From: Myxococcus guangdongensis
Lineage (GTDB): Bacteria > Myxococcota > Myxococcia > Myxococcales > Myxococcaceae
Direction: 5' to 3'
Assembly: GCF_024198255.1 (NCBI RefSeq)
Contig: NZ_JAJVKW010000015.1
Location: forward strand, 124,001 to 188,000
DNA: 64,000 nucleotides
The position numbers and the translations under genes are program-made. Below the pieces are notes generated by a model. The model was not told where the DNA came from and did not search any database. It saw nothing but the letters and a program-made list of their open reading frames with translations. Each line of letters begins with the position of its first letter. The stretch's first letter is position 1. This document shows, piece after piece, positions 42,401-61,456 of this stretch.

Positions 42401-42408
42401 GGGCGCCG

Positions 42409-42828: not shown

Positions 42829-42994
42829 GATGTCTCCCTGAGTCGAAGCCCCTCACCGGGGCGCGACATCATGTGCCGGGCGGAGCGCGGGCTTCAATCC
42901 AGCGCGCTCGGGTGGAGTGTTGGACGGTGGGGATGAGTGGGTGTTGACCTCGCCGCCCTCGAGCCCAATCCTTTCCAGACACCAGGAGGCGTGG

Positions 42995-44650
42995 ATGGGA
43001 CGACGCTCGGTTTCGAGGAAGTGTCTCGATGTGCTGCTGGGGAGTCTGTTCATCGCGGGGATGGCCTGTGCGCCACTTCCCGGCGAGGAGGAAGACCTGC
43101 CCGTGAGTGTGCTCGAGCAGTCGCTCCTGCCCCCGTTGGACACGTCCTATCAGACCGTCCTGTATGACGATTCCGTCACGGCGGGTTGGAACCTCGGCTA
43201 CAGCTGGGGCGGTATTTCCTATACATCGACGACGAGCACGAAGGCCTATGGGACTTCGTCGTTGCAGGTCACCTCGGGCGCGGACAGTGGGTTTGCCCTG
43301 GGCGCCGAAGGACAGACGTTCCCGACGAACACCCACAAGGCCGTGAGCTTCGCCATCCGTCCGGGCACGGCGAGCCTCGCGGCCATCAAGAGCCTGCGGC
43401 TCATCGTGAGCCAGGAGGGCACGGATGGGAATGCGGGCGTCGCGATTGGCGCCTACGCCAACCCGAGCTTCGACACCTTGCCCGCCGGCGAATGGACGCG
43501 GGTCACCGTCCCGATGAGCGCGCTCGCGGGGGCGCTGACCACGTTCAACAAGGTCACCCTCCAGAGTGTCTCCGCGGTGACCTATGGGATGGACGGAATC
43601 GCGTTGGAGAAGGTGACGGGAGGCAAGACCTATCCCACGGGCGTCGCCTACCGCGGCATCAACCGCGCGGGGATGGAGTACGGCAACGACTGGGATGGTT
43701 GGACGGGGCAGACGTATTACGAGATGCCGTCGTCGACCCAGGCGAACGCCGAGCTCGCGTACTACAAGCGCAAGGGCTTCAACCTGATTCGTCTGCCCAT
43801 TTCATGGGAGCGCCTCCAGCACACGCTCAATGGTCCGCTGGATGGGGCCTATTCGACGGGCATGCTGAACTACATCAACCTGGCCACGACCCAGGGCTTC
43901 ACCCTGGTGCTCGACCTGCACAACTACAACCGCTACGCGACGGGTGCGTTCGATGGCGCGGGCAACCAGACCTCGAACTACGTCCAGCGTGTCATCGGGG
44001 ACGGGACGCTGACGGTGGCCCACCTGGCGGACGTCTGGACGAAGCTCGCGAACCTGGTGAAGACGAACCCCAAGGTCGTCCTGAACCTCATGAACGAGCC
44101 GCACGACCTGCCGATGAATTCGACCACCTGGTTCTCTGGCATCCAGACCGTCATCAACGCGGTGCGAGCGACGGGGTCCACCCAGCTGATCTTGGTCCCC
44201 AACACGCGCGGGTCGGACGTGGGGCACTGGCACACGTGGGCTCCGGGCGGAGGTCCGCTCGACTCGGTCGCCGCCCTGTCCATCACCGACAGCGCGAACA
44301 ACCATGCCTTCGACATGCACTCGTATTACCCGGAAGGCTACGGCAGCAACGACGAGTCGTCCTACGGCGCCCAGCTGACGGCCGTCACCCAGTGGGCGAG
44401 GACGAACGGCAAGAAGCTGTTCCTGTCCGAGATGGGCATTCCGAACCAGGCGTCGTACGCGCAGACGCAAATCACGAACGCGCTCACGTTCATGAACAAC
44501 AACCGAGACGTGTGGCTCGGCTGGTCTCCGTGGGATCTGGCGCCCTGGCAGCTCACCACCAACAGCCACACGGGGGACTACACGGCCAACGGAGTCACCC
44601 CCATCAACTGGTACGCCGCGTTCCTGACCGCGAACTTCCTCGCGTTGTGA
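42995..44650 (+). CDS. Lipoprotein endoglucanase, glycoside hydrolase family 5, with N-terminal beta-sandwich domain
   Basis: 551 residues. ATG at 42995 follows AGGAGG by six bases and begins a lipoprotein signal ending FIAGMAC. Residues ~50-205 form a carbohydrate-binding-module-like beta-sandwich (AGWNLGYSWGGISYTSTTST). The GH5 barrel follows: FNLIRLPISWERLQ, acid/base Glu368 in LNLMNEPHD, His-Tyr pair in DMHSYYPEG and nucleophile Glu479 in LFLSEMGIP. It cleaves beta-1,4-glucan or a related polysaccharide at the cell surface or outside. It converges on the M23 peptidase gene with a 15-base gap. Confidence 0.93.
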   Translation: MGRRSVSRKCLDVLLGSLFIAGMACAPLPGEEEDLPVSVLEQSLLPPLDTSYQTVLYDDSVTAGWNLGYSWGGISYTSTTSTKAYGTSSLQVTSGADSGFALGAEGQTFPTNTHKAVSFAIRPGTASLAAIKSLRLIVSQEGTDGNAGVAIGAYANPSFDTLPAGEWTRVTVPMSALAGALTTFNKVTLQSVSAVTYGMDGIALEKVTGGKTYPTGVAYRGINRAGMEYGNDWDGWTGQTYYEMPSSTQANAELAYYKRKGFNLIRLPISWERLQHTLNGPLDGAYSTGMLNYINLATTQGFTLVLDLHNYNRYATGAFDGAGNQTSNYVQRVIGDGTLTVAHLADVWTKLANLVKTNPKVVLNLMNEPHDLPMNSTTWFSGIQTVINAVRATGSTQLILVPNTRGSDVGHWHTWAPGGGPLDSVAALSITDSANNHAFDMHSYYPEGYGSNDESSYGAQLTAVTQWARTNGKKLFLSEMGIPNQASYAQTQITNALTFMNNNRDVWLGWSPWDLAPWQLTTNSHTGDYTANGVTPINWYAAFLTANFLAL

Positions 44651-44665
44651 GCGCGGGGGGAACCG

Positions 44666-45766
44666 TCAGAAGTTCGGGTTCACGGGCGCCTGCCCGTCGT
44701 TCCACAGGTGGATGCTGAGGGCGCCACTGGGGTGGTTGCGCCACGCCCACGGGTCGAAGCCGCTGGGCGCGGCCCACCCATAGACTTCGATGTTGCTCGT
44801 CATGGGGGGGTGGTCCGTGCTCGGAATCGAGTAGTCCCGGCGGTACTCCGACGCGGTGTTCGTCAAGCGCGCCACGGCCAGGTGCAGGTGGGACGCGGAC
44901 GAGCACCCCGTGGAGCCCGCGTAGCCGATGACCTGTCCCTTCCTGACGACCTGCCCGGCCGTGACGACGTAGGACTTGAAGTGGGCGGAGTAGCTCACGA
45001 ACCGCTCCAGGTATTCACCCGAGCCGACGTCGTGCTGAATGTAGACCTCCTTCTGGATGGGAGAGGTGCAGGGCACCTGCCTGTCTCTGGCGAGGAGGAC
45101 CGTGCCGTTGGCCACGGCGAGGATGGGCGTGCCGGTGACCATTCCCCAATCATGGCCATCGTGGTTGTTGACGAAGGGGGCGTTCGATTGATCTCTCCCC
45201 AGGTGGTCCACGATGTGCGCGGTCGTCGAGCCTGTCTGGCCGAAGTCCGCCACGTCGAGGGGGACGTCCTGCGCGAAGTCGAAGCCCGTGGCGTGGAACA
45301 CGCGCGTCATCAAGGAGAAGGGTGCGTCGAAGATGGGCAGCGCCTCGGGCGCCGTGGTGAACACGCAGCCCCTGCGCTGGTGCTTCGTGGCGTCGGCGTG
45401 CGCGGACTGGAGCGGAGCGGCGCCGAGGCCGCTCCACAAACCCACCGTCCCATCCGCGCATCGGGAGACCACGTTGTTGCGTCCCTGGGCTGAGTAGAGG
45501 CCGGCCCGCGCGACGGTGCCTCCTGGCGCTTGCTCTCGAAGCCGCTCACAGGGCGCCGTGTCCGTCGCGGGCTCCCAGGCGAAGGCCCAGTCCTGCGCGG
45601 GCCAGCGCATGCTGCAGTAGTGCCCCATCCCAGGGGGAACCTCCACCTCGGGGCTCAGCTCCTCTGGAGGCAGCTCCGGGAGCGGCCTCGGGTCTCCCGC
45701 GCACGATTGGAGGACCATCACGAGGAGCACTGCCGGGAGGCGAAGCATCGGGGTGTCGAGGCTCAT
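44666..45766 (-). CDS. Lipoprotein M23 (LytM-type) metallopeptidase
   Basis: 366 residues from ATG MSLDTPMLRL, giving a lipoprotein signal ending LVMVLQSC. The M23 zinc site is seen as NNHDGHDWGMVTGTPILAV (His and Asp ligands) and SSASHLHLAVAR (HLH), with GYAGSTGCSS just before it. The ~190 residues ahead of the catalytic domain are unassigned and contain several cysteines. M23 enzymes cut peptidoglycan cross-links; here the enzyme is probably anchored in the outer membrane facing the wall, or acts on prey walls. Confidence 0.9.
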   Translation of the reverse strand: MSLDTPMLRLPAVLLVMVLQSCAGDPRPLPELPPEELSPEVEVPPGMGHYCSMRWPAQDWAFAWEPATDTAPCERLREQAPGGTVARAGLYSAQGRNNVVSRCADGTVGLWSGLGAAPLQSAHADATKHQRRGCVFTTAPEALPIFDAPFSLMTRVFHATGFDFAQDVPLDVADFGQTGSTTAHIVDHLGRDQSNAPFVNNHDGHDWGMVTGTPILAVANGTVLLARDRQVPCTSPIQKEVYIQHDVGSGEYLERFVSYSAHFKSYVVTAGQVVRKGQVIGYAGSTGCSSASHLHLAVARLTNTASEYRRDYSIPSTDHPPMTSNIEVYGWAAPSGFDPWAWRNHPSGALSIHLWNDGQAPVNPNF

Positions 45767-45852
45767 GCCGCCGACCTTACGGGCGGCCCCGCGTCGCATC
45801 CACCGGAGGAGGGAGCGGTGCCGCGATGTGCATCATCGAGCAAGGAGTCGGG

Positions 45853-46761
45853 TCAGTCGAAGGTCCGGGTGAGCCGCTCCTTCGCCGCCTCGATGAACAG
45901 GCGCAGCGGCTCGGAGCGTTGGGCCCGGCTGGGGTAGTAGAGGAAGAAGCCGGGCACCGTGGGCGCGTAGGCCTCCAGGACACACTTCAGCTGGCCGGTC
46001 CGCAGTCGCTCGGCCACCGCGGGCTCGAGGGTATAGGCGAGTCCCTGGTTCTGCTCCGCCAGGTGCACGCTCAGGGCATTGTCGTTGGTGACGATTCCAC
46101 CGCGCACGGGGACCCGCCAGGTGCGCCGCCCCCGCTCCAGCTCCCAGGCGTAGAGCGCCCCGGTGCTCTGCATCCGGAAGGTGATGCACTCGTGGCGAAG
46201 CAGGTCCTCGGGACGCTGGGGCGTGCCCATCCGCTCGAGATACGCGGGGCCGCCCACCACCAGGAAGCGGAAGGCGCCGGTGAGCCGCATCTGCACCATG
46301 TCCCGCTCGATGGCCTCGCTCAGCCGCACGCCCGCGTCGTAGCCCTCCGCCACGACGTCCACGAAGCGGTCCTCGACGACGACCTCCACCTCGACGCGAG
46401 GGTGGCGCTCGTGGAAGGTCGGCATCACGGGGGTGATGACGAAGGGCGCCGCGGCCCGGGACACGGACAGCCGGAGCCGGCCGACGGGCTCACCCGGCTT
46501 CGCGGAGACCTCGGTGAGGGCCGCGAACGTCTGGCTCAGGGCGGGCCCCGCCCGCTCGACCAGCTGCCTGCCCACCTCGGTCAGCGACACGCTGCGCGTG
46601 GTCCGGGTCAGCAACACCACGCGCAGGTGCGCCTCGAGCTGGCGCACGGCCTGACTGACGGCGGAAGGGGAGAGGCCCAGCTCGCGGGCCGCCGCGCTGA
46701 AGCTGCGCAGCCGCGCCACCACGAGGAAGGTCTGCAACTGGGGCAGGAGCGCCGTCTTCAT
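45853..46761 (-). CDS. LysR-family transcriptional regulator
   Basis: 302 residues. HTH: FLVVARLRSFSAAARELGLS followed by SAVSQAVRQLEAHLR. The effector domain has GYDAGVRLSEAIERDMVQMR and ends with APTVPGFFLYYPSRAQRS, shared almost word for word with the LysR at 24170-25075. Start MKTALLPQLQTF; a GTG at 46773 would add four residues. Divergent from the RND pump gene at 46900 with 138 bases between, so it is the likely regulator of that pump. Confidence 0.93.
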   Translation of the reverse strand: MKTALLPQLQTFLVVARLRSFSAAARELGLSPSAVSQAVRQLEAHLRVVLLTRTTRSVSLTEVGRQLVERAGPALSQTFAALTEVSAKPGEPVGRLRLSVSRAAAPFVITPVMPTFHERHPRVEVEVVVEDRFVDVVAEGYDAGVRLSEAIERDMVQMRLTGAFRFLVVGGPAYLERMGTPQRPEDLLRHECITFRMQSTGALYAWELERGRRTWRVPVRGGIVTNDNALSVHLAEQNQGLAYTLEPAVAERLRTGQLKCVLEAYAPTVPGFFLYYPSRAQRSEPLRLFIEAAKERLTRTFD

Positions 46762-46899
46762 CGCGTGGGTCACTGACAGGTCCGCGGGGCGTGCCGATTG
46801 TTCACTTCGACTTCAAAGCCCATATCCCCGCGGGTGCCTAGTGTCCCGGGGACGTGGCCCGTATTCCTCCGGACCTCACCGGACGACTCCAGACACAGC

Positions 46900-49800
46900 A
46901 TGGTCCACTTCTTCATCCGTCGGCCTGTGTTCGCGGCCGTCCTGTCCATCCTGCTCACGCTGGTGGGGGCCATCGCCATCCCCACCCTGCCCATCTCCCA
47001 GTATCCGGACCTGGCGCCTCCGCAGGTGACGGTGACCTCCACCTACGTGGGGGCCAGCGCGGAGGTCGTGGAGACCGCCGTCACCATCCCGCTGGAGCAG
47101 GAGCTCAACGGGGTGGAGGGCATGCGCTACATCACCTCCACGTCGAGCAACGATGGGACGAGCGCCATCACCATCACCTTCGAGGCCACCCGCGACATCG
47201 AGGTGGCGGCGGTCGACGTCCAGAACCGGGTCAGCCGCGCCGCCGCGCGCTTGCCTTCGGAGGTGAGCCAGACGGGCGTCGTCGTCAGCAAGGCCTCCAA
47301 TCAGCTGCTGATGTCCTTCGGGCTCTACAGCCCGGATGACCGCTACGACGCGGGGTTCATCAGCAACTACGCGGACGTCAACATCAAGGATGCCCTCAAG
47401 CGCGTGCGGGGCGTGGGCGACGTGCGCCTCTTCGGAGAGCGGCGCTTCAGCATGCGCCTGTGGCTGGACCCCACCGCGCTCACGCGCCACCGGCTCACGC
47501 CCCAGGACGTGGCGCGGGCCCTGCGGGAGCAGAACGTGCAAGTGGCCGCCGGGCAGGTGGGACAGCCGCCGAGCCGGAGCAATCAGGACTACCAGTTGGC
47601 GGTGCGCGCCCGGGGCCGTCTGGTGGAGCCCTCGGAGTTCGAGGACATCGTCGTGCAGCGCAACCCCGGGGGCCGCCTGGTACGGCTGCGGGACGTGGGC
47701 CGCGCGGAGATGGGCGCGGAGAACTACGGCATGCTCCTGCGCTTCAACGGCCGGCCCGGGCTGGGGCTGGGCATCTTCCAGCTCCCCACCGCCAACGCGC
47801 TGGAGGTGCGCGACGTCGTCGTCCAGGAGATGGCGCGCCTGAGCCAGCAGTTCCCGCCGGGGCTCGAGTACCGGCACGCCACCGACACCACGCTGGCGGT
47901 GCGCGCCTCCATCGACGAGGTGCTCAAGACGCTGATGGAGGCCATCGTCCTGGTCATCCTGGTCATCTTCCTCTTCCTGCACGGGTGGCGCAGCGTGCTC
48001 ATCACCGCGCTGACGCTGCCGGTGTCGCTCGTGGGCACGTTCGCCTTCGTGAAGCTGTTCGGCTTCTCCATCAACACGCTGACGCTCTTCGGGCTCACCC
48101 TGGCCACGGGGCTGGTGGTGGACGACGCCATCGTCGTCATCGAGAACATCGAGCGCTTGATGGCCGAGCGGGGCCTGAGCGCCCGCGCCGCCGCGCGGGA
48201 AGGCATGAAGGAGGTGGCCGGCGCGGTGGTGGCCATCTCCGTCGTGTTGGTGGCGGTGTTCGTGCCGGTGGCCCTGTTCCCCGGGACGACGGGCGCCATC
48301 TACCGACAGTTCGCCCTCACCATCGCGGCCTCGGTGGGCTTGTCCACGGTGTGCGCGCTCACCCTGACGCCCGCGCTCTCCGCGCTGCTGCTGCGACATC
48401 ACGCCGGGCCGAAGTGGCGCTTCTTCCGCGCGGTGGACGCGGTGCTCGACGCGACGAAGCACCTCTACGGGCGGCTGCTGCGCGTCCTGCTGAAGCACCC
48501 GGCCCGGGTGCTGCTCGTCTTCGTCGCCTTCCTGGGCGCCACGGCGGTGCTGTTCCGCGTGGTGCCCACGGGCTTCATCCCGGACGAGGACCAGGGGTAC
48601 TTCATCGTCTCGGTGCAGGGGCCGGAGGGCATGTCGCTCGCCCGGACGGAGAAGGTGCTCGAGGAGCTGGAGGTCATCCTGCGCGCGCAGCCCGAGTTCC
48701 GGGGCATGTTCGTCATCGGAGGCACGTCGCTGGGCAACAACGGCTCCAACCTGGCCCAGGCCTACGTCAACCTCCTGCCCTGGGACGAGCGCAAGGGCGA
48801 GGGCCACTCGGTGGCCGCCGTCGTGGAGCGGCTGCGCGGGCCGCTCGCGGGCATCGGCGGCGCGCGGGTGATGCCCTTCCTGCCGCCGGCGATTCGAGGC
48901 GTGGGCACGGTGGGCGGCTTCCAGTTCATCGTCGAGGAGACGTCCGGTGGCAGGGCGCTGTCGGAGTTCGCCACCGCCGCCCACGAGCTGGTGGGCAAAA
49001 GCGGCGAGGACAGCCGCTTGCGAGGCGTCTTCACCTCCTTCGCGGCGGACACGCCCCTGCTCGACGTGGAGGTGGACCGGCAGCAGGCGAACGCGCTGGG
49101 CATCCCCGTGGACCAGCTCTTCAGCACGCTCCAGCTCTACATGGGCAGCCAGTACGTCAACGACTTCAACTACGCGAGCCGCACCTACCGCGTCTATCTG
49201 CAGGCCGAGCAGCAGTTCCGGGACACGCCCCAGGACATCGGCGCCTTCTACGCGCGCAACGAGAGCGGGGACATGATTCCGCTCGAGTCGCTGGTGAAGG
49301 TGACGCCCACCACGTCCGCCCAGGTCATCCGCCGCTACAACCTGTTCCGCTCGGCGGAGCTCAACGGGCAGGCGGCCCCGGGGGTCTCCTCCGGGCAGGC
49401 CATGGCCGCCATGGAGGAGCTGGCGGAGCGGGTGTTGCCGCCGGGCACGGCCACGGAGTGGTCCGGCCTCTCCCTGGAGCAGCAGGAGAGCGGCGGGCAG
49501 ACCGGCGTCATCTTCGGGCTGGGGCTGCTCTTCGTGTTCCTGGTGCTCGCCGCCCAGTACGAGAGCTTCACGCTGCCGCTGGTGGTCATCCTCTCGGTGC
49601 CCCTGGCGATGCTGGGGGCGCTGGGGCTCCAGGTGCTGCGCGGGCTGCCCAACGACGTCTTCTGTCAGGTGGGGCTGGTCATGCTGGTGGGGCTGGCGAG
49701 CAAGAACGCCATCCTCATCGTGGAGTTCGCGGAGCAACTGCGCGCGCAGGGGCGCAGCGCGTTGGAGGCCGCCATCGAGGCCTCCGAGGTGCGCCTGCGT

Positions 49801-50061
49801 CCCATCCTCATGACGTCCATCGCGTTCCTGCTCGGCGTGGTGCCGCTGATGCTGGCCACGGGCGCGGGCGCGGCGGCGCGCAACAGCCTGGGCACCGCGG
49901 TCTTCGGCGGCATGTTGGTGTCCACCGTGGTGAACCTCATCTTCATCCCCAGCCTCTACCTGCTGATGCAGAAGCTGCGCGGAGACTCCCGGCGCACGCG
50001 GGATGACGAAGAGGAGGCGCTGCCCGGGGTGCACGCGCATCCCGGCGCACCGTCACCCTGA
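46900..50061 (+). CDS. Multidrug efflux RND transporter (HAE1/AcrB type)
   Basis: 1053 residues, full length. N-terminus VHFFIRRPVFAAVLSILLTL and the porter-domain pattern PPQVTVTSTYVGASAEVVET are typical of AcrB-like drug pumps. The proton-relay helix reads GLATGLVVDDAIVVIENIER with the paired aspartates. It exports amphipathic drugs, solvents or bile-acid-like compounds using proton motive force. No adaptor or outer-membrane channel gene is adjacent, unlike most acrAB loci, so it must borrow partners encoded elsewhere. Start ATG at 46900 fits the family N-terminus; no strong ribosome site is seen. Confidence 0.94.
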   Translation: MVHFFIRRPVFAAVLSILLTLVGAIAIPTLPISQYPDLAPPQVTVTSTYVGASAEVVETAVTIPLEQELNGVEGMRYITSTSSNDGTSAITITFEATRDIEVAAVDVQNRVSRAAARLPSEVSQTGVVVSKASNQLLMSFGLYSPDDRYDAGFISNYADVNIKDALKRVRGVGDVRLFGERRFSMRLWLDPTALTRHRLTPQDVARALREQNVQVAAGQVGQPPSRSNQDYQLAVRARGRLVEPSEFEDIVVQRNPGGRLVRLRDVGRAEMGAENYGMLLRFNGRPGLGLGIFQLPTANALEVRDVVVQEMARLSQQFPPGLEYRHATDTTLAVRASIDEVLKTLMEAIVLVILVIFLFLHGWRSVLITALTLPVSLVGTFAFVKLFGFSINTLTLFGLTLATGLVVDDAIVVIENIERLMAERGLSARAAAREGMKEVAGAVVAISVVLVAVFVPVALFPGTTGAIYRQFALTIAASVGLSTVCALTLTPALSALLLRHHAGPKWRFFRAVDAVLDATKHLYGRLLRVLLKHPARVLLVFVAFLGATAVLFRVVPTGFIPDEDQGYFIVSVQGPEGMSLARTEKVLEELEVILRAQPEFRGMFVIGGTSLGNNGSNLAQAYVNLLPWDERKGEGHSVAAVVERLRGPLAGIGGARVMPFLPPAIRGVGTVGGFQFIVEETSGGRALSEFATAAHELVGKSGEDSRLRGVFTSFAADTPLLDVEVDRQQANALGIPVDQLFSTLQLYMGSQYVNDFNYASRTYRVYLQAEQQFRDTPQDIGAFYARNESGDMIPLESLVKVTPTTSAQVIRRYNLFRSAELNGQAAPGVSSGQAMAAMEELAERVLPPGTATEWSGLSLEQQESGGQTGVIFGLGLLFVFLVLAAQYESFTLPLVVILSVPLAMLGALGLQVLRGLPNDVFCQVGLVMLVGLASKNAILIVEFAEQLRAQGRSALEAAIEASEVRLRPILMTSIAFLLGVVPLMLATGAGAAARNSLGTAVFGGMLVSTVVNLIFIPSLYLLMQKLRGDSRRTRDDEEEALPGVHAHPGAPSP

Positions 50062-50083
50062 AGTGCTCCTTCAAAGCCCATGA

Positions 50084-51208
<1,125 letters not shown>

Positions 51209-51219
51209 GCCCGGGGCGC

Positions 51220-51819
51220 CTAGGGGAGGGGACGCGCGGTGTCCTCGCTCCGCGAAAAGACGTTCGCGGGGATGTCTCCGACAGAGACATTGGGGAAGTC
51301 TCGCACCGAGACGTGTTGCGAGTCGTTCCCGGAGAGCATGCGGAGCAGCAGGTTGGTTCGGGTCTGGGTGTAGAACGTCAAGGGGGCCTTGTGTCGCCGC
51401 TCGATGACCCAGGCATCGGCCAGTTGTCCGAGCACGGGTTCACATCCGGCATGGCGCGCATTCCCATCGACCAACACCGCGCGAGGCAGGAACAGCTCGT
51501 GGAACGGCGTCGTCTCCTCCGGCAACAAGGACTCACAGAGGCAGTCGCCAAGGACGGTGGCCGTCCGCCAATAGGCCATCTTCCTCTTGATGCTCCGTCC
51601 TTGCGCGACATCGCCGACCTCCGACATCCAGAGCTGGTACCCCCGCTCCTTCTCCGGCCAGGGATTGAACAGCCCGTCGATGCGGCAGACGTCCCGGACA
51701 TAGTCGAACCAGCAGTAGCCCGAGGTGACCTGGTCGTCTCGTCGCATGGGCGACCAATAGGAGACGTAGGCGCTGCACCATTGGAGGGGGAGGAGCGGAG
51801 GGGGAGGGCGTGTTTGCAT
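51220..51819 (-). CDS. vioE: Violacein biosynthesis enzyme VioE
   Basis: 199 residues (Chromobacterium VioE is 191). Strong match to VioE: CSAYVSYWSPMRRDDQVTSG, the segment YCWFDYVRDVCRIDGLFNPW, LWMSEVGDVA and the C-terminal DFPNVSVGDIPANVF. VioE has no cofactor; it takes the unstable indole-imine dimer made by VioA and VioB and carries out the 1,2-indole shift that gives prodeoxyviolaceinic acid, so preventing side formation of chromopyrrolic acid. Start ATG at 51819 has GGAAGG seven bases upstream. Last gene of the operon, 56 bases after vioC; vioD would be expected in that gap. Confidence 0.95.
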   Translation of the reverse strand: MQTRPPPPLLPLQWCSAYVSYWSPMRRDDQVTSGYCWFDYVRDVCRIDGLFNPWPEKERGYQLWMSEVGDVAQGRSIKRKMAYWRTATVLGDCLCESLLPEETTPFHELFLPRAVLVDGNARHAGCEPVLGQLADAWVIERRHKAPLTFYTQTRTNLLLRMLSGNDSQHVSVRDFPNVSVGDIPANVFSRSEDTARPLP

Positions 51820-51875
51820 GTCGGGGCCTTCCACGCGAGTGCTTGCTCATGGAGATCCAGAGGGGACGCGCTCGG

Positions 51876-53165
51876 TCAATTCATCCGGCCAAGCCTGTAC
51901 CAGACGTTCTGTTTCCGCTGGAGCCGTCGCAGTTCGTCATAGGGGACCGAATCGAAGTAGAGCTTCTCCGCCATGTCTGGTGGATAGAGGCTGGGGAACT
52001 TCTTGTGCATGTAGCGGGCATATTGGGCCCGCAGGAAGAAGATGACGCTGGGGTGGCTCAGCACCTCGTAGTTCGCGATGGACATGTCCTGCATCGCATC
52101 TGCCTGCACCTTGCGCTGGCGAGTGAACTCGGGGAGCACGGTGTCGAGGTCGTGGGCATGTTGGTCCAGCAGGGTGGCGAAGACGGAGGCGTCTTCCAGC
52201 GCCATGTTCATCCCTTGGCCCAGGAAGGGCGCGGTGGCGTGCGCCGCATCGCCGAGGAGCAGGGCGTTTCCACGATGATGGAAGGTGCTGGCGCGGACAT
52301 TGACGAGGTCGTTGCTGGGCTGGGTCACGAACTGGTCCAGCATCTCTTGCCGGCGTCCGGGTGGCAGGCCCCCGAAGTAGTGATTGAAGAAGGCGCGCAG
52401 GGTGGCTCCATCCTGCGTGGCCAGGCTCAGGGCGCCTTGGTAGGGCAAGCAGATGGCGAAGCTGATGCTGCCATCGGGGATGGTCGCCGCGCGTCCGGCG
52501 AAGAGCCCCTTGGAGTCCATGCCGAAGAAGTACAAGAAGTCCTTCCGGTAGCCCAGCTCGGCGGCATTGGGGAGGACCAGGGTCTTGTAGCCGTGGCGGA
52601 AGAAGGTCTGCTTGAATTCGAAGCGCCGCAAGCCACTCTGCATGGACTGCCGGACCGCCGAGTGCGCGCCATCCGCGCCGATGATCAAATCCCCTCGGTG
52701 GTGCCGGAATCCGCCGTCTCCCTCCTGGACGAGGACCGACTTCTTCTCCAGGTCGACGTTGATGCATTTGCAGTCGAAGTGGAACTTCACCCCGAGAAGG
52801 GCGGCGTGCTGGTTCAGCAGCTGTTGGAACGCCAGTCGATTCAGGGACAGCGGGGAGAGGTCCTCGAGCGGTGTGAGCTTGCGGATCTTGTATTTCCCGC
52901 CCACGCAGAAGGCCATGCCCGTGATGGGCTCACCACATCGCGCCAGCTCCTGCGCGGGGATTCCCGCCCGCAGGACCGCCTTCATGCCCCTGACGTTCAT
53001 GCTGACGCCGATGGCGCGTGAGGAGGTCCGCTCGTGGGCGGGGGACGGGCTTCGCAGCGGGTCGCTTCGCTTCTCGAGGACACGGACGTCGTACCCACGA
53101 CGTGCCAGATAGATGGCGGTCAGGCTCCCCGCCAGTCCACCGCCCACGATGATGGTTTCATGCAT
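51876..53165 (-). CDS. vioC: FAD-dependent monooxygenase VioC
   Basis: 429 residues, the same length as Chromobacterium VioC. FAD-binding GGGLAG at residues 8-13, conserved SRAIGVSMNVRG, FFRHGYKTLVLPN and GDAAHATAPFLGQGMNMALE around residue 305, and the ending RRLQRKQNVWYRLGRMN all match VioC rather than VioD. VioC uses NADPH and O2 to oxidise the second indole to an oxindole, converting prodeoxyviolaceinic acid to deoxyviolacein (or proviolaceinic acid to violacein). Its start abuts the vioB stop (53166), so it is in the same transcript. Confidence 0.96.
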   Translation of the reverse strand: MHETIIVGGGLAGSLTAIYLARRGYDVRVLEKRSDPLRSPSPAHERTSSRAIGVSMNVRGMKAVLRAGIPAQELARCGEPITGMAFCVGGKYKIRKLTPLEDLSPLSLNRLAFQQLLNQHAALLGVKFHFDCKCINVDLEKKSVLVQEGDGGFRHHRGDLIIGADGAHSAVRQSMQSGLRRFEFKQTFFRHGYKTLVLPNAAELGYRKDFLYFFGMDSKGLFAGRAATIPDGSISFAICLPYQGALSLATQDGATLRAFFNHYFGGLPPGRRQEMLDQFVTQPSNDLVNVRASTFHHRGNALLLGDAAHATAPFLGQGMNMALEDASVFATLLDQHAHDLDTVLPEFTRQRKVQADAMQDMSIANYEVLSHPSVIFFLRAQYARYMHKKFPSLYPPDMAEKLYFDSVPYDELRRLQRKQNVWYRLGRMN

Positions 53166-56100
53166 TCAGGCCTCCCTTGAAAGCTTCCCGTGGGCCAGGT
53201 CGGTCAGCTGTCGGTCGAAGAACTCCAACATCTCTATCGGTGCCACGCCGACGAGGTCCGCGCCGAGCTCGCGGGCCCGTTGCGCCAGCGTCAGGCATCT
53301 CCGAGCCAGCTCCAGGCACCCCTGCGCGTAGTCGCTGCTGATGGGCTCATGGGCTGACTCGGGCACGGGGGGCCCTGCGTTGCGCCCGGGAATGCCGGAT
53401 GGCGTCCGCATCAGGGTCGTCGAGAGCGGACGCAGCAGGCCCGTCATGATGTCGATGGAGGCATTCATCAAGCGGGAGCGGCGCAGGCTGCCCGACGGGC
53501 TCTGCGCGAAGTGATGCGTCATCAACGACATCATCAGCGCGTGACACCCTTGATAGAGCGTCATCAGCGCCCTGGCGCGCTCGTTCGTGACCTCGACGCA
53601 GCTCTCGCGTGGCTCCAGGGTTGGGTTCCTCAAGGCGGGAACCGCGGGCTCGAAGGGCTGCTTCCGCGCGCTGAATCGGGAGGCCATGCCGCGCAGTCTC
53701 TGGAAATGCGAGGACTCGAAGTGAGGCGAATCGACCGCGACCCCTTCTCCCTGGGCGGTGACGTAATCAATGGAGAAGAGCGCGCTGTCCCGGTCGAAGA
53801 CCTCCAGTTGATAGGCTGGAAAGTGTTTGTTGGTCAGCTCATTCAAGAAGAGGTGGTGTTCCCCTCCGGGTTTGCCAGCGCGGGGGGCGAACAGGTCGGG
53901 CAGCTCACGGAGCGCCTGGCGAATCGAGGTGTAGAGGTCCGAGATGGACCTTCCTGGCGAGGGGAGATGTCCGGGCCATTCGAAGCGAATGAACTTCGCG
54001 AGCACGTGCTCGGAGAAAGGCTCGAGGGCGAACTCGGCATCCAGGCCGAAATGCCGCCGCGCCTGGGCCCCCAGCATGGAAGTGCCGGCATGGAAGGGCT
54101 CACCCAGCGCCATCAACACATTGTTGATGACCAGGTAGTGAATCATCTCTTCATGCGCGATTTCGAGCAGCGTCCCCCGCATGCCGCTGTTGCGGCGTCG
54201 GTCCTCGGAGCCGCAGGCCAGTTCCAGCTCGGCCAGCTGCCAACGGCCCGCCCGGACCTGCTCGAGTCCCTGTTCGTAGTTGGGAATGGAGTAGGCGGCG
54301 TACAGATATTGATGCAGCAGGGACAGCTCCAGATCGATCGCCCGCTTCAATTCCTGGACCAGTTGGGCCTTGCTGTGGATGGGGCGCGGTCCCTCCGGCT
54401 CGGGGAGAGAGGTCCTGGAGGTGGCTTCGATGTTCGTCAGGTATTTCAGGAACAGGTTCGACTTGGGGAGAGAGAGCTCCCGGGTGCTCGGCATGTAGTA
54501 GCTCTTGTCCCGGTTGAGCGGATCACACATCTGCCACATCAGTCGGGAGTACGTTTCGCATTTGCAGCGGTCCGCCATGCTGAACACCTTGTTCGACATG
54601 AACGGGTAGATCAGCTCGTAGTAGCTCATGACGTGCCGATACAAGAATGCGTAGTCGACCTGCTCGGTGGGGACCTCCTCCAGATGCCAGTCGTCGGGTA
54701 ACACCCGGACACCGATGAACTGGCTGTCGTCTCCGACGCTGAGCGCGACGCGGGTTGCTCCAGGCCGTTGGCCGATGAGGGTGAGTTGCGCATGGCCCGT
54801 CCCATGCGGAGAAGGGGCCAGCTGCGCCGTCGCGATGTCGGAGTCCTCGACGTGCACGGCCAACGCCGGCGGGGAGGCCAGTTCGCCACGGAGGCGACTC
54901 TGCACCGTGAGGGTCTGGGGGAAGACCCGGTTCTTTCGTTTGTGGGGGGACTCGAGGAACAGGTGGTTGTCGTCGGACTGCACCACCCAGTCGACCTCGT
55001 CCCACTGCGCGTGTTCGCCTGTCAGGGACAGCGAACCCGTGGCGGAGCCCAACAGCGGCACGTCGAGGACGCCATGGTGACGCCCATGGTCGAGATAGAG
55101 TGCCTCGGGGAGCCGCGCGAGCAGGGTGCCGGATGGGTCGCGCAGCTCGAGGTCCCCCAGTGGCAGTTTCCCGCCCAGGCCATGCGTGGGGTGTTCGGCC
55201 GAGACAGGTCGAGCGCTTCGGGTCGTGAAGGGAATCGCGGTCGGCATGTTGAGGGACACCCGGTCCGGCTGCACCTTCACCGCGACCGGTCCCAGGCCGG
55301 GTTGGCGAGGCAACAGCAGGCGTCCTGCTGGGTACGTCTCCAGCTCGTGCTTGCACCACAGCCCGATGGTGCCGATGAGGTCATGGAAGACGGCGGAATC
55401 GGCGGCTCGCGGCGTCGACATGTTGAACAAGGCGTACTGGACCGTCAGTCCCAGAATCTCCTCGTCCTCCAGTGCTCGCTGCACGGCACCCAGGCCGGGG
55501 GACGCCGTGGCCCGTGAATCGAGTGGGAAGAGCGCGTCCTTCTTGGGGAGGGAGAACTGGAACAGTCGCGAGCGGCTGAATTCTTCGTCGAGAAAATGAG
55601 GGCTGCGCTCGACGACATGCCCTGCTCCGAGCCAGCGGACGGAATGCGCCCGCGGAATGCTCGCCGTGAGCAAGGGTGGGGTGTGAGGCGTGGCGTGCTT
55701 GTCGCTCAGCGTCAGCTGCCCGGCGTAGATGAGGGTGGTGTCCGGTCGGCTGGGGTTGTTGTCCACCCATCTGGCGCGGTTGAACGTCGTGCGCAGGTAC
55801 TCGTTGTAGTGCCCCCAGAGCGCCAGTCGGGCTCCCACCAGAGGGTCTTCCGTGTCGATGACACCTTCGCGCAGCTGTACGCCCGTGAGCCGGACCTCCT
55901 CCCAGGAGAAGTGATTGTTGCCGCCGAGGTTGTAGCCGGCTGCCTCGCTGAAGATGCCTTCAGGGGCGGGTCTCCCCTCCGCATCGAATCTGGGAGCCAG
56001 TTGCTTCAGGTGCTCATGGAATTCAGAGGGCGCCCGGTGGAGGTCGAACGGCGCGCCATCCATGAAGACGGTGTTGGTCGCGAGGTCGAGCTGCCCATGG

Positions 56101-56177
56101 GTGTTTCGGTTCCCGGTGGGGACATTGGCGCGGGCAAAGCCTCGAAAGTGAAGCCGCGGGAGATGGAGGATGCTCAT
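53166..56177 (-). CDS. vioB: Iminophenyl-pyruvate/indole-imine dimer synthase VioB
   Basis: 1003 residues (Chromobacterium VioB 998). Start SILHLPRLHFRGFARANVPT matches the VioB N-terminus; later landmarks are NHFSWEEV, LFNMSTPRAADSAVFHD, CKCETYSRLMWQMCDP near residue 540, and a ferritin-like region with LELSLLHQYLYAAYSIPNYE and LLEIAHEEMIHYLVINN near residue 670, ending AHGKLSREA. Family knowledge: VioB couples two molecules of the indole-3-pyruvate imine made by VioA, using a haem/iron centre, and releases H2O2. A GTG four codons upstream is an alternative start. 33 bases after vioA. Confidence 0.97.
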   Translation of the reverse strand: MSILHLPRLHFRGFARANVPTGNRNTHGQLDLATNTVFMDGAPFDLHRAPSEFHEHLKQLAPRFDAEGRPAPEGIFSEAAGYNLGGNNHFSWEEVRLTGVQLREGVIDTEDPLVGARLALWGHYNEYLRTTFNRARWVDNNPSRPDTTLIYAGQLTLSDKHATPHTPPLLTASIPRAHSVRWLGAGHVVERSPHFLDEEFSRSRLFQFSLPKKDALFPLDSRATASPGLGAVQRALEDEEILGLTVQYALFNMSTPRAADSAVFHDLIGTIGLWCKHELETYPAGRLLLPRQPGLGPVAVKVQPDRVSLNMPTAIPFTTRSARPVSAEHPTHGLGGKLPLGDLELRDPSGTLLARLPEALYLDHGRHHGVLDVPLLGSATGSLSLTGEHAQWDEVDWVVQSDDNHLFLESPHKRKNRVFPQTLTVQSRLRGELASPPALAVHVEDSDIATAQLAPSPHGTGHAQLTLIGQRPGATRVALSVGDDSQFIGVRVLPDDWHLEEVPTEQVDYAFLYRHVMSYYELIYPFMSNKVFSMADRCKCETYSRLMWQMCDPLNRDKSYYMPSTRELSLPKSNLFLKYLTNIEATSRTSLPEPEGPRPIHSKAQLVQELKRAIDLELSLLHQYLYAAYSIPNYEQGLEQVRAGRWQLAELELACGSEDRRRNSGMRGTLLEIAHEEMIHYLVINNVLMALGEPFHAGTSMLGAQARRHFGLDAEFALEPFSEHVLAKFIRFEWPGHLPSPGRSISDLYTSIRQALRELPDLFAPRAGKPGGEHHLFLNELTNKHFPAYQLEVFDRDSALFSIDYVTAQGEGVAVDSPHFESSHFQRLRGMASRFSARKQPFEPAVPALRNPTLEPRESCVEVTNERARALMTLYQGCHALMMSLMTHHFAQSPSGSLRRSRLMNASIDIMTGLLRPLSTTLMRTPSGIPGRNAGPPVPESAHEPISSDYAQGCLELARRCLTLAQRARELGADLVGVAPIEMLEFFDRQLTDLAHGKLSREA

Positions 56178-56210
56178 GACGTCCGGCACGGAGTGCTGTG
56201 AGGAGGGGTG

Positions 56211-57479
56211 TCAGGGCCGACGCTCGGGGGCGCCGACGAGCCGTTCCTGCAACAGCCGGGTTGCTTGATGTGCGCTGAGGAGGCCCCCCTCCATCCAGCC
56301 ACCATGGGGTGTGTAGGCATCCGAGCAGGCGATGACACCATCGCGATGAAGCAAGGCCCCGGGTTGTCTGACCCTGGGCTCGAGGCTGAACTCCACGCCA
56401 TGTGACCAATGCTTGTGGAAATGGTCCTTGATGGGAGGCAGGGGCTTGCCGCCGAGGGGGAGGACCTGCTCCATGCAGGCGCGGACCTTGCTCAGATAGA
56501 CATCCTCGCCTTGCTCCACACAGTCACGCCAATAGGTGGCGTTCTCTCCGTCGGTGTAGAACTGGACGTATTTCCTGCCTTTGAAATAGAGCTTCCTCAA
56601 GGGGTTGTCGACCACCAGGACCTTGTCGGTCAACTGGAGGTCTCGCCACCAGGGGGTGTCGAAGGTCAAGAAGCCCTTGAACAAGGGAAGTGAGCCGTAT
56701 TGATGCGGACTCCAGCGGGTGGGGAATCCGAGATTGAGCCGTGACATGGCGGATGGTGGGATGGCCAGGATGAGGTGCCGCGCTCGATGGAACTGCGAGC
56801 TGCCTCGGTGGCTGAAGGCGAGCAGGTAGCTGTCTCCAAAGCGAGAGATGGAGTGCAGGCAGTGTTCCATCCGAAACTCGACCCGGTCGGACTGGGCCTG
56901 CTTCTGCAGTCGCGCCAGGAGCTGGCCGTAGCCCGCCGGTGCGTAGCGCCATTGGTTGCCTGTGTCGTCGAGCAGCCCCTGTGTCTCGGGGTGCTTCTTG
57001 ATGATGCCATAGGCCATGGACGCGGAGACCATGGGCAGGAGCAAGGCGTCATACCCCATGGCCTTGATGGTCCGCCTGGCCTCGCCTTCTCCCAGGTAGT
57101 GGCTGACGAAGCCCAGGAATGAATCATGCGGATGGGCTTCCAGCAGGCAGAGCAGCTCGAGCAGGGTGGCTCTGAGTCGTCCCTGTGTGTGGCCTTGGAA
57201 CTCCGCCTGGGTGAATGGATAGGTCTCATGTCGATGCTGGAAGCCGTGCATGAGGGCCTGGAAGCGTGGGTGCAGTTGCGGTGAGTAGCGTGCCGCGCCC
57301 AGTTCGGCGATTTCTCCGCAGTCGAGCTTTCTCGAGAGGATTCGGCCGCCCACGTGGGTGTTCAAGTCGAACACCTTGATGCTCAGGTGGTTGCTCGATG
57401 GCGCGGCCGCCAAACGGGCGGCGCAGGTCAGTCCGCCGATTCCGGCGCCAACGATGCAGATGTCCGAATGATGTGCCAT
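56211..57479 (-). CDS. vioA: L-tryptophan oxidase VioA
   Basis: 422 residues (Chromobacterium VioA 418). FAD-binding GAGIGG at residues 11-16, then VGGRILSRKLDCGEIAELGA, ARYSPQLHPRFQ, GYDALLLPMVSASMAYGI, HLILAIPPSAMS, YGSLPLFKGFLTF, VDNPLRKLYFKG and the C-terminal SDAYTPHGGWMEGGLLSA, all characteristic of VioA. It oxidises L-tryptophan to the indole-3-pyruvate imine with O2 and releases H2O2. First gene of the vioABCE operon. Start ATG at 57479; the frame extends upstream with low-complexity sequence not related to VioA. Confidence 0.97.
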   Translation of the reverse strand: MAHHSDICIVGAGIGGLTCAARLAAAPSSNHLSIKVFDLNTHVGGRILSRKLDCGEIAELGAARYSPQLHPRFQALMHGFQHRHETYPFTQAEFQGHTQGRLRATLLELLCLLEAHPHDSFLGFVSHYLGEGEARRTIKAMGYDALLLPMVSASMAYGIIKKHPETQGLLDDTGNQWRYAPAGYGQLLARLQKQAQSDRVEFRMEHCLHSISRFGDSYLLAFSHRGSSQFHRARHLILAIPPSAMSRLNLGFPTRWSPHQYGSLPLFKGFLTFDTPWWRDLQLTDKVLVVDNPLRKLYFKGRKYVQFYTDGENATYWRDCVEQGEDVYLSKVRACMEQVLPLGGKPLPPIKDHFHKHWSHGVEFSLEPRVRQPGALLHRDGVIACSDAYTPHGGWMEGGLLSAHQATRLLQERLVGAPERRP

Positions 57480-57792: not shown

Positions 57793-58233
57793 TCAGCGAT
57801 TGCTCGCGCTCGTGGGGCGAGGACCTCGCGAGGGGGGCGTCCGGAAAGCGAGCCGCAGGACGTTCTCGGGAGGGCCGATGCTCCCGCAGTAGCCGCCGTC
57901 TCGGAGGTTGACGATTTGGCTGCCCCTGAAGGTGGCCGTACCGCTCGGATTGAAGCCCGAGGTCTGGAATTGACCGGGCTCGATGCTGAACGGGGTCCCG
58001 GTCAGGTCGATGTTGCCTCGGCCGGTCTGTGAGTCATTGGCAACGCAGTCGCCCGCGGTGGCCAGCGGGGTGGCCTCGATGCGAGTGTCTCCGAAGCTCG
58101 CCCAGCCTTGGCGGACGGCGAAGGTGGTGTCGGAGAGCTCGAGCGTGAGGGTCGCGGGTTTGAAGCGCACCTTCTGGAACCAGGTGGTTTGCCATCCGTG
58201 GAGGCTCGCACGCGCCCATGGCCTCGCCGTGGC
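57793..58233 (-). pseudogene. 5'-truncated GON-domain protein remnant
   Basis: About 146 codons with a GON-domain C-terminal pattern: HGWQTTWFQKVRFKPATLTL, DTTFAVRQG, GDCVANDSQTGRGNIDLTGT, PFSIEPGQFQTSGF and GGYCGSIGPPENVLRL. Coding similarity runs right back to the stop codon of the upstream gene (58234-58236), which is in the same frame, and no start codon exists before GTG at the start of VRFKPA. So the 5' part of a larger exported protein has been lost. GON domains occur in large exported myxobacterial proteins and in animal ADAMTS enzymes. Confidence 0.65.
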
Positions 58234-59475
58234 TCAGTGCCAGGTGCCCGCGCCGACACCCCAGGCGAAGTAGCGACGGGACACATCGGCGAAGCCGCTG
58301 ACTCGCCACGAGGTGTCGGGCGACATCAGGCCGAAGACGGACCACTGGAACAGCCGCACCTCCGCGCCGACGGTGCCGTGCAGGCGCGGCCCGACGGTGT
58401 CGAAGCGGCTCGGCTCCAGGTAGCTGCCCGCGCGCAGCTGCAGGCGATTCTCGAGGGGCTCCAGCTCCGCGCCGATGCGAGGAGAGACCGACAGCCGCCG
58501 CCCCGAGCGCTCCAGCCGCTGCGACAGGAATGAGTCGAAGCCGATGGCGTTCGACACCGCGCCGCTGAACAGCACGGAGCCCGTCAGCAGCAGCTTGGAG
58601 CGGGGCAGGGCCTTGAAGCGCTCCGCGCGCTCAGGCCCCCACGGCATCTGGAGCGGGCGTGCACCGAACTGCCAGGCGATGCCCGCTTCGATTTCCCAGG
58701 GGAGCCTCACGGAGTCAGGCAGGTAGAGACCGGCGACCCGCACGTTGCCCGCGTCATCCGCGGTGGCGGGTCCGCCCGGCGTGAGGCTTCCCTTGACGGG
58801 CGCCCGGAGGGACAGCGCGGCGCGCAGCGGCAGGTCCATGGGCGTCCAGAGGGCCCCAGCCTCCACGTTGGCGCCGAGCATGGTGGCCAGCGTGTTGTTG
58901 GTGTCCTGGGCGGGGTTGATGTTCAGCGAAACCGCGCGCAGGCCCACGCCCACCACCAGCTCCGCCTCGAAGAAGCTGCGCGCGAGCTGGAGCTGGAAGC
59001 GCGTCATCCCCAGGTCGAGGACCTGGCCGTTCGCGTCCTGGCCCAGGGTGTAGTTCTGGATCGACGCGGCGCCGCCCACTCCCCAGGGACCCCACTGGAT
59101 GAGGCCTCCCAACTGGACGAAGACGAACTCCTCCTTGGCGAAGCCCACCGAACCGTTGTTGTCGAAGTCGGTGTCGCGCAGCGAGCTGGGGAACGTGAAG
59201 CCCGCGGACAGGTCGTAGTCCACGTGCTTCGACGAATAGAGCGAGCGCATGGCGGGCGCGGCGGTGTTGACGCTGATGCCCTCGACGCCCTCGGCGATGG
59301 GCGCATAGGCGCCCGACAGACCCGACACCCGCACTGGCGCCAGCACCGGGCCCTGGTACACGTCGATGGCGTAGTTCGAACCCGTCAGCGGTGGGTTGTC
59401 CGCGAGCGCCCCGCCACTGGAGGCCAGCACTGCCGCGATGATGAACCCGAGAAGAGAAGACGCGCGAGGAGGCAT
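58234..59475 (-). CDS. Predicted outer-membrane beta-barrel protein
   Basis: 413 residues from ATG MPPRASSLLG, which precedes a signal peptide ending SSGGALA. The mature part is a series of amphipathic beta strands with Gly/aromatic residues (VGGAASIQNYTLGQDANGQV, FFEAELVVGVGLRAVSLNIN, RLHGTVGAEVRLFQWSVFGL) and the C-terminal FADVSRRYFAWGVGAGTWH, typical of a barrel in the outer membrane. Function unknown. A start 27 bases upstream is possible. The GON-domain remnant follows it in the same frame. Confidence 0.8.
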   Translation of the reverse strand: MPPRASSLLGFIIAAVLASSGGALADNPPLTGSNYAIDVYQGPVLAPVRVSGLSGAYAPIAEGVEGISVNTAAPAMRSLYSSKHVDYDLSAGFTFPSSLRDTDFDNNGSVGFAKEEFVFVQLGGLIQWGPWGVGGAASIQNYTLGQDANGQVLDLGMTRFQLQLARSFFEAELVVGVGLRAVSLNINPAQDTNNTLATMLGANVEAGALWTPMDLPLRAALSLRAPVKGSLTPGGPATADDAGNVRVAGLYLPDSVRLPWEIEAGIAWQFGARPLQMPWGPERAERFKALPRSKLLLTGSVLFSGAVSNAIGFDSFLSQRLERSGRRLSVSPRIGAELEPLENRLQLRAGSYLEPSRFDTVGPRLHGTVGAEVRLFQWSVFGLMSPDTSWRVSGFADVSRRYFAWGVGAGTWH

Positions 59476-59577
59476 GGTCGTATCGCTCTCGCGAGGATAC
59501 ATGGCCAGGGGCGCCTGCTCGCTCCACGGTGGTGTCCCGGGGATGGACTTGTCCGAAAGTGGCGCGGTCCCGTGCGG

Positions 59578-60441
59578 TCAGCCGAGCGCCTTGGCGACGA
59601 CATCGCGCATGTTCATCGGCGCGCGACCGAGCAGCTCCGACAACGTGGGGTCGACCGCCGCGAACTCACCGTGACGGCTCGCGCGGTAGAGGCCCAGGGA
59701 GATGGCGACCACGTGCGAAGGCATGCCGGCCGCCTCCAGTCTCGCCTGCATCGCGTCTTCGGACACGGTGCCGCGACGCACCGGACGACCCAACACTTCT
59801 GAGGCGATAGCGCAGAGCGACTCGAAGTCCAGGGCTCGTGTCGCCGTGAGCGGCGGGGTCGGGCCTTCATACCGACCCTCGTTCGCCAGAACCACGGCGG
59901 CGGCCTCCGCGAGGTCCTCGTGCGTGGTCCAGGAGACCTGGCCATCCTCCGGTGCCTCGAAGACGCCCGTCTCCACGCTTCGCATCAGCAGCATCACCGC
60001 GCTCGCCGCGTAGAATCCATTGCGGAGCGCGGTCCACTGAAGGCCGGAGTCCTTCAGCAACTGCTCCGTCGCCGCGTGGTCGTGCATGGGAGGGAAGGCC
60101 GAGGAAGGGCTCGCGGCCATATGGCTGGTGTAGACGATGCGCTTCACGCCCGCGGCACGCGCGGCGTCGATGGCCGAGCGATGCTGCGCCAGGGTGTCCC
60201 CGCCATGGGCACGTGCATTGGAAGAGACGAGCAGGACCTGGGTCGCTCCCTCGAACGCGTGCACGAGGCTGGCTGGCTGGGCGAAGTCGCCCTGGCGCAC
60301 CCGAAGGCCCCTCGCGGCCAGCTCCTGGGCCTTCCCCGGGTCGCGGACGCTGACGGCGACCCGCTCCACGGGCACCCGGGTGATGAGCCTCTCCACGATG
60401 AGGCGGCCGAGCCGCCCCGTTGCTCCGGTCACGACGATCAT
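59578..60441 (-). CDS. NmrA/atypical-SDR family NAD(P)-binding oxidoreductase
   Basis: 287 residues. N-terminal Rossmann motif VVTGATGRLGRLIVERL, then VRQGDFAQPASLVHAFEGAT, VLLVSSNAR and VKRIVYTSHMAAS, as in QorB/NmrA-like proteins. The classical SDR catalytic Tyr-x3-Lys is absent, as is usual in this group, so it may be a quinone reductase (QorB-like) or a redox sensor. Start ATG at 60441 has GGAGG seven bases ahead. Divergent from the TetR gene with a palindromic operator between (60466-60487). Confidence 0.9.
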   Translation of the reverse strand: MIVVTGATGRLGRLIVERLITRVPVERVAVSVRDPGKAQELAARGLRVRQGDFAQPASLVHAFEGATQVLLVSSNARAHGGDTLAQHRSAIDAARAAGVKRIVYTSHMAASPSSAFPPMHDHAATEQLLKDSGLQWTALRNGFYAASAVMLLMRSVETGVFEAPEDGQVSWTTHEDLAEAAAVVLANEGRYEGPTPPLTATRALDFESLCAIASEVLGRPVRRGTVSEDAMQARLEAAGMPSHVVAISLGLYRASRHGEFAAVDPTLSELLGRAPMNMRDVVAKALG

Positions 60442-60465
60442 CCGACTGCCTCCAGGTGTTATCAA

Positions 60466-60487
60466 TGGAAACGGATTATCGTTTCCA
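60466..60487. promoter_or_regulatory. Palindromic operator for the TetR regulator
   Basis: TGGAAACG (60466-60473), centre GATTAT, CGTTTCCA (60480-60487): perfect 8-bp arms, 22 bases in all. A half site GGAAACG follows at 60491-60497. It lies in the 123-base gap between two divergent genes, the standard position for a TetR operator that represses both. Confidence 0.65.
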
Positions 60488-60564
60488 GCGGAAACGTAGG
60501 GCTCGTTATCGACGATGTCAATGTCCCGTTAGCGGTGATTCTGGCCGCGTGCTATCCCCGTGAA

Positions 60565-61290
60565 ATGACGGACCGGGAGAAGCTCGCCGACGAGGCCGAG
60601 GCGGGCTCGGATGTGCGCATCCGCATCATCGAGGCCGCGGCCGAGCTCATCGCCACGGGAGGGCCGGATGCGGTGACGACGCGCGCGGTCGCCTCCGCGG
60701 CCGGCGTGCAGGCACCGACGCTGTACCGGCTCTTCGGCGACAAGCGGGGCCTCGTCGGCGCGGTCATCGAGCATGTGATGAAGCGCTACGTGTCGGAGAA
60801 GGCCACGCGGCGGCCGCACCCCGACCCGCTCCAGGACTTCCGCGATGGATGGGACATGCACGTGGCGTTTGGCCTCGGCCACCCCGGTCTGTTCGCGCTG
60901 ATGAGCAGCGACCCCTATCTGTCGTCGCACTCGCCGGCCCTCGGCGATGGGGCGGCGGTGCTGCGCAGGCGCATCCGGAACATCGCGCTCGCGGGGCGGC
61001 TGCGGGTCAGCGAGGAGCGTGCGTTCGGTCTGGTGTCGGCGATGGGCACCGGGGCCGTGCTGATGCTGCTGGCCCAGCCCGAGGACCAACGAGACCTCGG
61101 GCTCGCCGAAGCCGCGCGTGAGGCGGTGGTGGCCGCGATTTCGAATGAGGGCGAGTCCCCGGCGAGCACGGATGCCCGCGCCGTCGCCACGGTCATGCGC
61201 GCATCCATGGAGGGGCTCCAGGGCGTGCTCTCGCCCGGCGAAAGCCTGCTGCTGCACGAGTTGCTCAAGCGCATCGCGGACGCGCGGTGA
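60565..61290 (+). CDS. TetR-family transcriptional regulator
   Basis: 241 residues. The N-terminal HTH contains RIIEAAAELIATGGPDAVTT and ASAAGVQAPTLYRLFGDKRG, the TetR signature; the C-terminal helical ligand domain is less conserved. Start ATG MTDREKLADE chosen because no family-like sequence lies upstream. It is divergent from the NmrA-like oxidoreductase gene, and the shared palindrome at 60466-60487 implies ligand-responsive repression of both. Confidence 0.93.
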   Translation: MTDREKLADEAEAGSDVRIRIIEAAAELIATGGPDAVTTRAVASAAGVQAPTLYRLFGDKRGLVGAVIEHVMKRYVSEKATRRPHPDPLQDFRDGWDMHVAFGLGHPGLFALMSSDPYLSSHSPALGDGAAVLRRRIRNIALAGRLRVSEERAFGLVSAMGTGAVLMLLAQPEDQRDLGLAEAAREAVVAAISNEGESPASTDARAVATVMRASMEGLQGVLSPGESLLLHELLKRIADAR

Positions 61291-61456
61291 CAGCCGGTCG
61301 AGTGATGCCTTTGCCTCGCGCCGCCGCGCAACGGCCCTCGTCATGGTCGCCCCAAGCCCGGACGGTGCCGTTCGACTTCAGCGCCGATGACAGTCTTCAG
61401 AAGGCAGGGCGGCGCGCGTACAGTGGTTGAACACCGCGCACCGGGGGAGTCTCGCC

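Follow-up and report, generated by a model that had tools for sequence, protein, structure and literature searches.

The window, by which we mean the whole 64,000-nucleotide stretch of the Myxococcus guangdongensis genome that was analysed, contains a real, natural vioABCE operon, a variant of the known violacein pathway. In that pathway, VioA oxidises L-tryptophan and so yields indole-3-pyruvate imine, two molecules of which are coupled by VioB; VioE then turns the dimer into prodeoxyviolaceinic acid by rearrangement, and the 2-oxindole is formed when VioC oxygenates the indole. The VioE step is what sets violacein biosynthesis apart from that of the indolocarbazoles. By examining the genes and their junctions, the distribution of the operon among related genomes, and phylogenetic trees of its enzymes, we consider it very probable that this violacein-type operon, which has no vioD, was acquired horizontally and has been kept as a deoxyviolacein operon. 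We infer the direction of transfer, the loss of vioD as against its never having been present, the expression of the operon, and its product.

Gene content of the operon and the search for VioD

All four enzymes VioA, VioB, VioC and VioE of a violacein-type bisindole pathway were found in the window (Table 1), each above the cut-off of its NCBIfam equivalog model: VioA with 609 bits against 600 (NF053546; scanned as a 512-aa open frame), VioB with 1787 against 1250 (TIGR04492), VioC with 815 against 760 (NF053548), and VioE with 284 against 177 (TIGR03650; Pfam PF18234 was also matched). Among PDB sequences, VioA matches 5zbc (E 4.5e-141) and 5g3s (E about 1e-140), and VioE matches 2zf3 (E 9.9e-72) and 3bmz (E about 1e-71). 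These matches are far beyond chance. The first-pass annotation had described the proteins as matching Chromobacterium VioA, VioB, VioC and VioE along their length, and identities to Chromobacterium vaccinii (L018) of 52%, 60%, 69% and 58%, respectively, over nearly whole lengths bear this out. The myxobacterial context that it had named was also confirmed, the window's genome falling in the same genus group as a related genome in our set (G061).

Table 1. Features of the vioABCE operon in the window
Feature	Position	Strand	Basis and remarks
vioA, L-tryptophan oxidase, 422 aa	56211..57479	-	NF053546, PDB 5zbc; start by alignment
vioB, iminophenyl-pyruvate dimer synthase, 1007 aa from GTG	53166..56189	-	TIGR04492, full-length relatives
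vioC, FAD monooxygenase forming oxindole, 429 aa	51876..53165	-	NF053548
vioE, prodeoxyviolaceinic acid synthase, 204 aa from GTG	51220..51834	-	TIGR03650, PF18234, PDB 2zf3
vioC-vioE junction, 41 bp	51835..51875	-	place of vioD (~1.1 kb) in vioD-bearing operons

Three of the start codons call for comment. The vioA frame stays open as far as 57749, and family similarity begins at about the ATG at 57479. For vioB, an ATG lies 12 bp inside the GTG and is the likelier start because family similarity begins at residue 5; the GTG-started vioE frame likewise has an ATG, at residue 6. Near the C-terminus of VioA, all six myxobacterial proteins carry Gly before the motif GWMEGG, where four other aligned VioA sequences have Cys; among the structures, 5g3s has Cys there and 5zbc has Ala, presumably as the C395A variant of Chromobacterium VioA.

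Gene order is that of vioABCDE minus vioD, as had been claimed for the operon before. Since vioB and vioC abut and only 41 bp separate vioC from vioE, the usual place of vioD is empty. The check proposed at the outset, a search for a VioD homolog elsewhere in the genome, was run in three ways, all negative with positive controls. Janthinobacterium VioD (L003) found no match at E 0.001 in the window's genome or in five related vio-bearing genomes, nor in the window's genome even at E 10, and it matched all three vioD-bearing control genomes at E 2.3e-135 or better. A ten-row VioD alignment reached at best E 0.33 over 39 residues in the window's genome, and the NCBIfam VioD model NF053547 at best E 0.11; both matches are short and generic, and vioD-bearing controls gave E below 1e-130 in the VioD searches. 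As the draft assembly comprises 53 contigs (99.96% complete), an assembly gap could conceal a gene; the single-contig relatives G060, G069 and G077 gave no VioD with NF053547 either. The strongest VioD-profile match among the five other vio-bearing relatives, in G015 (E 2e-4 over 68 residues, with 22 bits where the cut-off is 620), was read as a generic FAD monooxygenase, since sub-cut-off matches to NF053547 also turn up in 11 of 14 unrelated control genomes at the same lax limit. A complete vioABCDE set would include the VioD C5 hydroxylase, and because protein, alignment and model searches found none in the genome, we class the operon as a deoxyviolacein-type vioABCE operon and not as a complete violacein operon.

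Distribution and probable insertion site

VioE was found in 6 of 96 Myxococcaceae genomes and 6 of 195 Myxococcota genomes, the same six from two genera. All six carry vioA, vioB, vioC and vioE in this order, and none yielded VioD in the protein, alignment or NF053547 searches. In the wider genome collection, 48 of 56 VioB loci carry vioA, vioB, vioC and vioE together, and 46 of these 48 also have vioD, always between vioC and vioE; the exceptions are a Myxococcus locus (L001) and one from Fluviispira, a member of the Bdellovibrionota (L026). Because the scan of this collection relied on six exact peptide patterns taken from the window's VioB, distant VioB operons may be overlooked. VioE had no match among 72,556 plasmid records. 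The vioABCE variant is thus not peculiar to the window, as six myxobacterial and two Fluviispira-family genomes have it.

The Fluviispira family contributes two VioE-bearing genomes out of 14, Fluviispira itself and a relative (G209), whose 14.5-kb stretch (L159; 29% G+C) carries vioABCE and in which no VioD was found. In Fluviispira the gap between vioC and vioE holds a stretch whose 32 aligned residues are 66% identical to Iodobacter VioD (E 3.8e-9) and which genome searches also recovered (E 2.3e-6 with the VioD alignment, 3.7e-7 with NF053547). At the DNA level 93 bp of this gap align to Iodobacter (L025) at 84% identity; about 900 bp of vioD are gone ahead of the aligned stretch and about 100 bp behind it. 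The remnant is direct evidence for the loss of vioD there. In a review table, Fluviispira is entered for "violacein-like production" (PMC7308576).

A separate observation concerns the cyanobacterium Calothrix sp. PCC 7103, in which three such genes lie adjacent (L053:9995-16435). They encode a VioB-like dimer synthase that, at 917 bits, falls short of the 1250-bit VioB cut-off, as well as a flavin amine oxidase and a VioE that passes its own cut-off (274 bits against 177). Neither VioC nor VioD had a match in this 23-kb locus, and the minimal cluster may make prodeoxyviolacein-like compounds.

The insertion site can be viewed through a near relative without VioE (G058), which matches the window at 41323-45803 (90%) and 58184-59511 (92%). 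The two matches stand 1.65 kb apart in G058 and 12.4 kb apart in the window; G058 also lacks window 59512-61387 at that place. Between the first match and the operon, window 45853-51208 is a block of a LysR regulator, an AcrB-type RND pump and an aldo-keto reductase. We rejected these three as pathway partners: in G059, of the same genus, the block (45859-51209) stands elsewhere and without vio genes, so that in the window it neighbours the operon and probably has no part in the pathway, and the six loci have few flanking genes in common. A mechanical comparison of open reading frames found few flanking genes common to the six myxobacterial loci, mostly between G060 and G069, in a comparison that is incomplete, its G+C filter having dropped all vio genes of L071 and the vioA of L075. 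Because the six loci share few flanking genes, the four genes vioABCE appear to move together as one unit. On the other side of the operon, a short frame beside vioA (57793-58170) matches the GON domain (PF08685; 29.7 bits against 22.6) and sits just inside 58184, where similarity to G058 resumes; it is perhaps a gene fragment that was brought in with the insertion or cut by it.

Phylogeny, probable loss of vioD and probable maintenance of the other genes

The phylogeny that had been suggested as a further check places the myxobacterial vio clade beside the vioD-bearing Oxalobacteraceae. Tree rows were picked by hand: the first VioA+B+C+E tree used 30 of 61 loci, the second 22 of the 61 plus L159, and the VioB tree 26 of the 61, with L001 omitted as the same locus as L075. 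With the four proteins combined, all myxobacterial operons group in a single clade (100/100), whose sister group is Oxalobacteraceae (100/100), and both Fluviispira-family operons fall with Iodobacter. Six cyanobacterial and actinobacterial homologues served to root the VioB tree, which again puts the myxobacteria beside Oxalobacteraceae. These two separate placements suggest that vioD is missing at least twice independently, in the myxobacteria and in the Fluviispira family. In the best VioA+B+C+E tree vioD-bearing Iodobacter is nested inside the Fluviispira-family operons, and the tree calls for three changes in whether vioD is present. Three losses were nevertheless not adopted: a single Fluviispira-G209 clade is not rejected (p-AU 0.11), and the claim is therefore limited to at least two.

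The junctions were compared with mononucleotide shuffles for remnants of VioD. None is detectable in the window's junction (L076), whose score was reached by 77 of 200 shuffles, or in those of L071 (36 of 200) and L072 (198 of 200). Remnants in L073 and L074, suggestive by eye, were dismissed when 147 and 101 of 200 shuffles reached their scores; the L075 junction, of 7 bp only, gave no score. In the same test none of 200 shuffles reached the score of the Fluviispira junction (109, against a shuffle maximum of 42). Because the myxobacterial junctions hold no remnant, the case for vioD loss in that clade comes wholly from the tree.

This lack of remnants would also suit an ancestral vioABCE in the myxobacteria, into which vioD was inserted later in Pseudomonadota, and one of the deepest forks among vio operons in the rooted VioB tree has a support of only 14. 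We regard that history as extremely unlikely, given that the myxobacteria are placed amid vioD-bearing lineages, as the sister group of Oxalobacteraceae, that vioD occupies the same place in every one of the vioD-bearing operons, and that the operon is unlike its host surroundings in G+C, which is lower in the operon than in the flanks at all six myxobacterial loci (0.558-0.638 against 0.673-0.686; 0.638 against 0.686 in the window). A decaying, silent relic, in which vioD was lost first with the rest following, would account for the patchy distribution within the family and has a partly decayed vioD in Fluviispira as a parallel. Such a relic is nonetheless improbable: no stop codon was found in the aligned stretches of 24 genes (four genes in six genomes of two genera), dN/dS is 0.10-0.27 (five of 15 genome pairs, for each of the four genes), and the window proteins all pass their cut-offs.

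It is more improbable still, though less so than an ancestral vioABCE, that the strain makes violacein after all by means of an unrelated monooxygenase that hydroxylates C5 in place of VioD. Other FAD monooxygenases are encoded, the VioC model matching ten stretches of the genome, VioC included. Against this substitution stand the identity of the best match after VioC, a kynurenine 3-monooxygenase (PDB E 2.9e-103) beside a kynureninase (TIGR01814), the short and generic nature of the VioD matches, and the flanks of the six loci, among which the mechanical comparison showed no tailoring gene accompanying the operon.

The preferred reading, a vioABCE operon kept for its own product, agrees with the constraint on its proteins. 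Columns invariant among the 46 vioD-bearing operons are kept in all six myxobacteria at 68 of 71 positions in VioA, 244 of 254 in VioB, 155 of 171 in VioC, and 48 of 51 in VioE; these retained residues and the low dN/dS suggest that the whole set of four genes is maintained. Invariant columns with a change in one or more of the six myxobacteria are more frequent in VioC than in VioA, VioB and VioE together (16/171 against 16/376; p 0.029, uncorrected); with Oxalobacteraceae removed from the background, the uncorrected p is 0.068. For columns that differ in all six, the counts are 4/171 and 3/376 (p 0.21, uncorrected). The two Fluviispira-family operons have no VioC excess (7/171 against 13/376; p 0.81, uncorrected), and in the same VioC test the vioD-bearing Chromobacterium and Pseudoalteromonas clades give p 0.03, uncorrected, in the opposite direction. 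On balance these counts speak mildly against VioC having come under weaker constraint once vioD was lost. At VioC residue 405, Asp is found in all six myxobacteria, and Thr in the 46 vioD-bearing and both Fluviispira-family operons; Asp405 might relate to the handling of unhydroxylated substrate only.

Expected product and comparison with known systems

In the window's operon, VioA would oxidise L-tryptophan to indole-3-pyruvate imine, VioB would join two of these imines, VioE would convert the dimer by rearrangement to prodeoxyviolaceinic acid, and VioC would oxygenate the indole to a 2-oxindole, yielding deoxyviolacein; because VioD is missing, no 5-hydroxyl and no violacein would be formed. 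VioC is described as acting on both protodeoxyviolaceinic and protoviolaceinic acid, and engineered vioABCE in Escherichia coli has been used to obtain deoxyviolacein alone (PMC5896143), for which reasons deoxyviolacein is the expected product here. Its use is most likely that of a defensive or predatory bisindole.

Violacein-type clusters have been listed for Myxococcus stipitatus and strain SCHIC003 (PMC8307915) and for Myxococcus spp. (PMC12211065), and an antiSMASH "violacein" cluster of "differing organization" for M. landrumus SCHIC03, whose fruiting bodies are white to purple (PMC10435759). That colour is consistent with deoxyviolacein as the product and is no proof of it. A word search of the main texts of these three papers found no mention of vioC, vioD, vioABCE or deoxyviolacein. 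The first-pass annotation knew of no described natural vioABCE-only operon in Myxococcota and left the novelty unverified; violacein clusters of Myxococcus are already in print, and on vioD these main texts are silent.

Deoxyviolacein has been called a side product of violacein biosynthesis (PMC5896143). The chances are about even, in our estimation, that natural operons dedicated to deoxyviolacein exist and that the vioABCE lineages found here outside Pseudomonadota (the myxobacteria, and Fluviispira with G209) lost vioD at least twice independently. If so, natural operons in two phyla, with the same gene independently missing, should give deoxyviolacein as their end product, which suggests that these hosts favour the pigment without the hydroxyl, perhaps in predation or the protection of fruiting bodies, or that VioD is costly to them. 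This would allow the role of violacein's 5-hydroxyl to be addressed, sharpen the "violacein" label given by cluster software to myxobacterial operons, and offer natural enzyme sets for deoxyviolacein alone.

Among known systems, the "violacein" clusters published for Myxococcus (PMC8307915, PMC10435759, PMC12211065) are very probably the same operons as those described here. The engineered vioABCE operons (PMC5896143) have the same gene set and were built in the laboratory, whereas the window operon is natural. The operons of Fluviispira multicolorata and G209 are likewise vioABCE without vioD and lie outside Pseudomonadota; unlike the myxobacterial operons they group with Iodobacter, and the former retains a vioD remnant. 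With the vioABCDE operons of Chromobacterium, Janthinobacterium and other Pseudomonadota, the window operon shares the same four enzymes in the same order and with tight spacing, but it differs from them in being without vioD, in standing in a myxobacterium, and in belonging to a genome in which no VioD was found.
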